Assembly (NCBI GenBank): GCA_028713495.1 | Contig: JAQTOF010000003.1 | Coordinates: 1 to 36,611 of the forward strand | Reading direction: 5' to 3' | DNA: 36,611 nt | Source of the DNA: Candidatus Iainarchaeum sp. | Lineage (GTDB): Archaea; Micrarchaeota; Micrarchaeia; Anstonellales; Bilamarchaeaceae | Part shown: one piece after another, positions 3,863 through 27,629 of the stretch | Layout: every line of letters starts with the position of its first letter | How positions within the stretch are numbered: position 1 is the stretch's first letter | The notes under the pieces: model-generated | Databases searched by the model: none | Seen by the model: only the letters and a program-made list of their open reading frames with translations | Told to the model about the DNA's origin: nothing | Position numbers and translations under genes: made by a program

Positions 3863-3993
3863 CGGGCCCAGAGGGATTTGAACCCTCGGCACACGGATTT
3901 CCACCTTTTAGGAAAAGGCGGAGCCAAAACGGGCTTGCTATCCTTTTCCTTCAGATAAGAGTCCGTCGCTCTACCAAGCTGAGCTATGGGCCC
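3863..3993 (-). tRNA. tRNA-Lys(CTT) with ~57-nt intron at about 37/38
   Basis: GGGCCCA/TGGGCCC acceptor, D-arm GCTC..GAGC, anticodon stem ACGGA/TCCGT with loop CTCTTA^A, T-arm GAGGGTTCAAATCCCTC. Intron about 3899-3955. The bulge-helix-bulge is imperfect by hand. Confidence 0.9.
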
Positions 3994-24593: not shown

Positions 24594-24713
24594 AGCCCCC
24601 GGAGGGAATTGAACCCCCGACCTACTCCTTTCCCGACCCCCGCAAAGGGAGGTTAAAAAGGAACCGTAGGTCCCTTTTACGAGAGAGTCGCTCTACCGCT
24701 GAGCTACGGAGGC
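24594..24713 (-). tRNA. tRNA-Thr(CGT) with ~48-nt intron at 37/38
   Basis: Acceptor GCCTCCG/CGGGGGC, anticodon stem ACTCT/GGAGT, loop CTCGTA^A. The central BHB helix CTCG/CGGG (one T.G) fits. Intron about 24630-24677. Confidence 0.9.
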
Positions 24714-24750: not shown

Positions 24751-24862
24751 TGCGGTCGCCGGGATTTGAACCCGGGTTATAGGCTTGGAAGGCATACTCT
24801 CGTCAGATATGTTCTCCATACCTAAAGACAATCTAAGTCCTACCAGGCTAGACTACAACCGC
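24751..24862 (-). tRNA. tRNA-Gly(TCC) with 39-nt noncanonical intron at 29/30
   Basis: Acceptor GCGGTTG/CGACCGC. Exon1 24862-24833, intron 24832-24794, exon2 24793-24751. Joining gives stem TAGGC/GCCTA and loop CTTCCAA; mature 73 nt. Confidence 0.93.
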
Positions 24863-24916
24863 ATGACTATAACTAGGTTTTAGCGGAAATGGTTATAAAT
24901 CCTCTAAGTGGCGCGC

Positions 24917-27511: not shown

Positions 27512-27629
27512 CGCCGACGGCAGGATTTGAACCTGCAATCCCAGAGGGATCGGTTGTCTCGAGAATCCGGTTCGAGATTCGTCAATCACGATGGATTTCC
27601 GACGCACTACCGGATTATGCGACGTCGGC
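27512..27629 (-). tRNA. Class II tRNA, Ser-like (probable CGA), interrupted; anticodon arm not cleanly resolved
   Basis: 118 nt; acceptor GCCGACG/CGTCGGC with G73, D-arm GCAT..GTGC, long variable arm ATCCC-TCT-GGGAT, T-arm GCAGGTTCAAATCCTGC, putative loop CTCGAGA; about 34 nt extra in the anticodon-arm region. Confidence 0.8.

Follow-up and report, generated by a model that had tools for sequence, protein, structure and literature searches.

A noncanonical BHB intron at position 29/30 of a tRNA-Gly(UCC) gene in a Micrarchaeota genome

The window analysed here, 36,611 nucleotides in length, is contig C3 of a Micrarchaeota genome (G000), a metagenome assembly of 1.02 Mb in 78 contigs which is 90% complete. 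A preliminary description proposed that positions 24751..24862 encode a tRNA-Gly(TCC) interrupted by a 39-nt intron at 29/30, within the anticodon stem. Is this a genuine tRNA gene, does the host have the enzymes that would splice it, and does the same intron occur in related species?

The tRNA-Gly(UCC) gene and its intron

The gene was sought with a purpose-written splicing search, in which every possible intron is removed and the resulting cloverleaf and BHB motif are scored. One solution stands out: it places a 39-nt intron behind position 29 and has a score of 83, compared to 48 for the next-best. The 112-nt precursor (24751..24862, minus strand, as are all the features of this gene) consists of exon 1 (24833..24862, 30 nt, positions 1-29), the intron (24794..24832) and exon 2 (24751..24793, 43 nt, positions 30-73), which carries the UCC anticodon. 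The spliced product is a standard 73-nt cloverleaf with the anticodon loop CTTCCAA and every stem paired, and the predicted exon-exon junction is ...GGACTTAG joined to GCCTTCCAA.... The strongest evidence, independent of the search, comes from four congeners (G001, G002, G009 and G015): their orthologues have introns at other positions, yet the exons match this mature sequence at all 73 nt. The position of the intron and the excision product that had been proposed are therefore both upheld. A candidate TATA-like box, TTTATAA (24893..24899), read from the sequence, is situated 31-37 nt upstream of the mature 5' end.

The motif at the junctions is a strict hBHBh'. Helix h pairs AGG with CCT; the 5' bulge AG^A (24832..24834) and the 3' bulge AT^G (24793..24795), each with a predicted cut after the second nucleotide, are on either side of a central helix in which ACTT (24835..24838) pairs with GAGT (24796-24799), and helix h' pairs TTGTC (24827..24831) with GACGA (24800-24804). 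The bulges, the 4-bp centre and the flanking helices are thus as first described, but the word "perfect" slightly overstates the case, since the central helix and h' each contain one G-U wobble. The combination of a 4-bp centre and a 5-bp h' at fixed junctions is found in 0.05% of shuffled introns. The junction cannot slide, because the first A of the intron differs from the first G of exon 2 and its last T from the last G of exon 1.

The 7-bp hairpin noticed at the apex of the intron (AGGTATG-GAGAA-CATATCT, 24805..24823) is also real: the MFE of the intron is −12.7 kcal/mol, compared to −5.1 ± 1.9 kcal/mol for shuffled sequences. ViennaRNA prefers another fold of the whole precursor by about 10 kcal/mol, but the probability that it assigns to the central helix is close to zero in all eight of the canonical introns of G000 that were examined as well, so that this prediction carries no information on the BHB.

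Could a real intron be spliced at a slightly different site, or through a relaxed motif? Enzymes of the epsilon2 type, to which that of the host belongs (see below), accept relaxed motifs (PMC6379350, PMC12397907). However, any other junction breaks either the 73/73 match to the orthologues or the anticodon stem, and no other solution approaches the score of the preferred one, which makes this possibility extremely unlikely.

Many BHB-like pairings arise randomly in short sequences, and a chance fold has to be weighed together with an artefact of assembly. The splicing search recovers two intronless tRNAs, two tRNAs with canonical introns and tRNA-Gly(UCC) in the real window, but gives 0 matches in 60 dinucleotide shuffles of the whole window (2.2 Mb). 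A homologous insertion is present at this site in an independent assembly, that of G022, and in G002 the tRNA-Gly gene is followed by tRNA-Thr(CGU), as in G000. Chance or artefact is therefore scarcely credible.

Those features of an archaeal BHB tRNA intron that can be read from sequence are present: the geometry of bulges and helices, a standard tRNA after predicted excision, and an EndA and a ligase in the host. Positions 24751-24862 are a tRNA-Gly(UCC) gene with a BHB intron. It is missed by ARAGORN and by Rfam at its gathering threshold, which suggests that the tRNA sets of Micrarchaeota are probably under-annotated. No second UCC gene is present among the tRNA matches of G000, from a search that misses intron-split genes. 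The cognate codon GGA accounts for 88 of the 6,459 codons in the long ORFs of the window.

Splicing enzymes and other tRNA introns of the host

The cutting of BHB motifs by EndA and the joining of exons by RtcB are established biochemistry. G000 encodes an EndA of the three-unit epsilon2 type (L001), which aligns end to end with ARMAN-2 EndA (PDB 4fz2, E=2.5e-131). Its single chain of about 390 aa is organized as alphaN-alpha-betaC, with N-terminal, catalytic and degenerate C-terminal matches. The catalytic residues Tyr236, His251 and Lys282 are kept, as are Tyr160 and Lys161 of the ARMAN-specific loop, and these five residues are invariant in 30 of 30 aligned family members. The closest named relatives are from Micrarchaeota metagenome genomes, the nearest (Sv348) being 94% identical. 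G000 also encodes an RtcB ligase (E=2.6e-164).

The preliminary description had predicted a broad-specificity splicing endonuclease from the position of the intron, and the EndA type identified elsewhere in the genome bears this out, with catalytic triad and ARMAN loop residues intact. The reasoning was weaker than stated, however: it is relaxed hBH/HBh' motifs that distinctively call for a broad-specificity enzyme, according to a review of the EndA types (PMC6379350). Since the motif here is a strict hBHBh', the 29/30 intron did not by itself demand such an enzyme.

The following path is proposed on the basis of the known EndA and RtcB biochemistry and of the presence of both genes in G000. 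Nucleotides 21-27 of exon 1, which cover the 3' strand of the D-stem and the first part of the anticodon stem, would pair with GAGT of the intron and CCT of exon 2 to form the BHB. An epsilon2 EndA homodimer would cut both bulges after the second nucleotide, RtcB would ligate the exons, and formation of the D-stem and of the anticodon stem would follow. Since the BHB competes with the D-stem for nucleotides 21-27 of exon 1, splicing would have to precede the final folding of the D-arm. We infer transcription, the two cuts, ligation and charging from sequence.

Of the tRNA loci that Rfam detects in G000, eight are clearly interrupted by one intron, at 37/38: Lys(UUU), Lys(CUU), Ile(GAU), Tyr(GUA), Thr(CGU), Arg(UCU), Leu(CAA) and Arg(UCG). 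A ninth, in Pro(CGG) of L031, was identified by visual inspection of the sequence; an intron of Leu(GAG) in the raw output is a scoring artefact of the long variable arm. The Lys(CUU) gene (3863-3993, minus strand), which has a 57-nt canonical intron, is missed by ARAGORN. The other noncanonical case of the genome, tRNA-Ser(CGA) (27512-27629, minus strand), is also in the window and has a 21-nt intron at 30/31 (27578-27598) and a 15-nt intron at 37/38 (27556-27570). Its second motif forms only once the first intron is removed.

The 37/38 intron of tRNA-Thr(CGU) (24594-24713, minus strand) contains a hairpin element, AAAAGGRACC..GGTTCCTTTTTAACCTCC, which is single-copy in G000, where no further copy was found. 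In the sister genomes G013, G014 and G004 the element is found at several further sites, which appear to lie outside tRNA genes.

G000 has a second EndA-like gene, which encodes a stand-alone protein of 165 aa (L002:1459-1956, minus strand, contig C37); it matches PF01974 above the cut-off, and 1a79 by profile (E=3.9e-21). This paralogue is found in 34 of 37 family genomes, G000 included, at the search cut-off used, and is patchy elsewhere in the order and the phylum. In G000, the catalytic histidine by which an active alpha subunit is recognized is replaced by lysine. In an alignment counted by eye, 32 of the 33 copies have Lys or Arg at the site of M. jannaschii EndA His125, and the remaining one has Val; the residue at the Tyr position is variable (His in the genus of G000) and the Lys is mostly kept. 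At the three loci examined, in two other genera of the family, the paralogue is situated about 0.5 kb from the epsilon2 gene, and the gene between them has a HELLH metallopeptidase-like motif. The paralogue is unlikely to act as a conventional stand-alone nuclease; as a hypothesis only, it might be an accessory splicing factor, a role for which this conserved, His-less protein is a testable candidate.

Different introns in the same tRNA of related species

The gene was followed by DNA searches in 59 relatives and splicing of the matches. An intron of 54-55 nt is present at 37/38 in the tRNA-Gly(UCC) of G002, G009 and G015, and G012 also has an intron at this position. The gene is interrupted twice in G001, at 15/16 and 59/60, and once in G004, at 59/60. 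The intron of G007 is in the D-loop; 15/16 is its natural reading, with an automatic score split between two positions. The gene is intronless in G003, G005, G006, G010, G011 and G016, and was not found in G013, the closest relative, whose assembly is 81% complete. Congeneric species thus have introns at four positions of this tRNA (15/16, 29/30, 37/38 and 59/60).

Outside the genus, G022, from the same family, has a 20-nt intron at 29/30 which reads T-CCGTC-TTT-GACGG-GAGT-AC; its counterpart in G000 is A-TTGTC-TTT-[19-nt hairpin]-GACGA-GAGT-AT. The central helix is the same, the apical hairpin is missing from the shorter intron, and in h', where the pairing is compensated (CCGTC/GACGG), one pair differs in both nucleotides and another in a single nucleotide. 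A wider search for the 29/30 pattern in 43 family genomes matched G022 only; its gap limit was one base short of the intron of G000 itself, so that it covers shorter introns. No copy of the 29/30 intron was detected outside tRNA-Gly. In a single-gene tree of EndA, G000 and G013 group with the species that have the 37/38 intron, and G022 is in another branch, with modest support. This placement implies that the 29/30 intron either is ancient and has been replaced or lost on several occasions, or arose twice.

These comparisons also bear on whether the gene is a decaying pseudogene whose insert is neutral debris, GGA being read by another tRNA-Gly(UCC) outside the assembly. A second copy could hide, given that the assembly is only 90% complete and that the tRNA search misses intron-split genes. 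Against this, the exons match those of four congeners at 73 of 73 nt with every stem pairing, the BHB is strict, and the site is retained in a second genus, where the pairing is compensated; decay is very unlikely. The gene is almost certainly a functional tRNA-Gly(UCC), in which a noncanonical BHB intron at 29/30 would be cut out by the epsilon2 EndA and the exons would be joined by RtcB. One may speculate further that the epsilon2 EndA and the His-less paralogue form a two-protein splicing system, in which the paralogue would bind or remodel the BHB or intron RNA, and which would tolerate a very fast turnover of introns at 15/16, 29/30, 37/38 and 59/60 of an unchanged tRNA-Gly; we consider this proposal rather doubtful.

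Several other features were seen at these loci. The tRNA-Gly(UCC) of G022 also has a T-loop intron, with a poor motif. In G009 (L068, 1536-1710), parts of the 3' half of tRNA-Gly(UCC) and of its intron end recur downstream of the gene, the copies being separated by a unit containing AAAGTTTCATCAAA. G012 (L088) has a second tRNA-Gly, with anticodon CCC and apparently three introns (D-loop, 37/38 and T-loop), read by eye. The AAAGTTTSATCAAA motif present near the introns of some relatives was considered as a box C/D element, but this reading was dropped.

Comparison with known systems

A single 29/30 intron is ordinary for archaea with a broad-specificity EndA and is a known kind of thing: 673 noncanonical BHB tRNA introns have been counted in 217 archaeal genomes (PMC8450103). 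The intron of tRNA-Gly(UCC) resembles those of Thermoproteales, Thaumarchaeota and others in having a BHB at the junction, with 3-nt bulges and a 4-bp centre, outside 37/38. It differs from them in its host lineage, the Micrarchaeota, for which no survey of tRNA introns was found in the literature searched.

ARMAN-1 and ARMAN-2 belong to the same phylum and have the same three-unit epsilon2 EndA with the ARMAN-specific loop; tRNAs with multiple introns have been reported there (PMC4033280). The EndA of G000 has, however, clearly diverged from that of ARMAN-2, and its genome contains the second EndA-like gene, none being mentioned for ARMAN-2 in the accessible part of the source.

The tRNA-Thr of Caldiarchaeum (PMC3293823) offers a similar heterogeneity, the number of introns in one tRNA gene differing between close relatives, but here no mobile element is seen at the locus. 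Related species are also known to have rapidly acquired introns at many different tRNA positions. In that case similar introns occur in different tRNAs, whereas here one unchanged tRNA body has different introns at four sites in congeners. The five congeneric genomes, with one mature tRNA-Gly(UCC) identical over 73 of 73 nt and varied intron sites, provide a clean natural series in which to follow how introns are gained, lost or moved.
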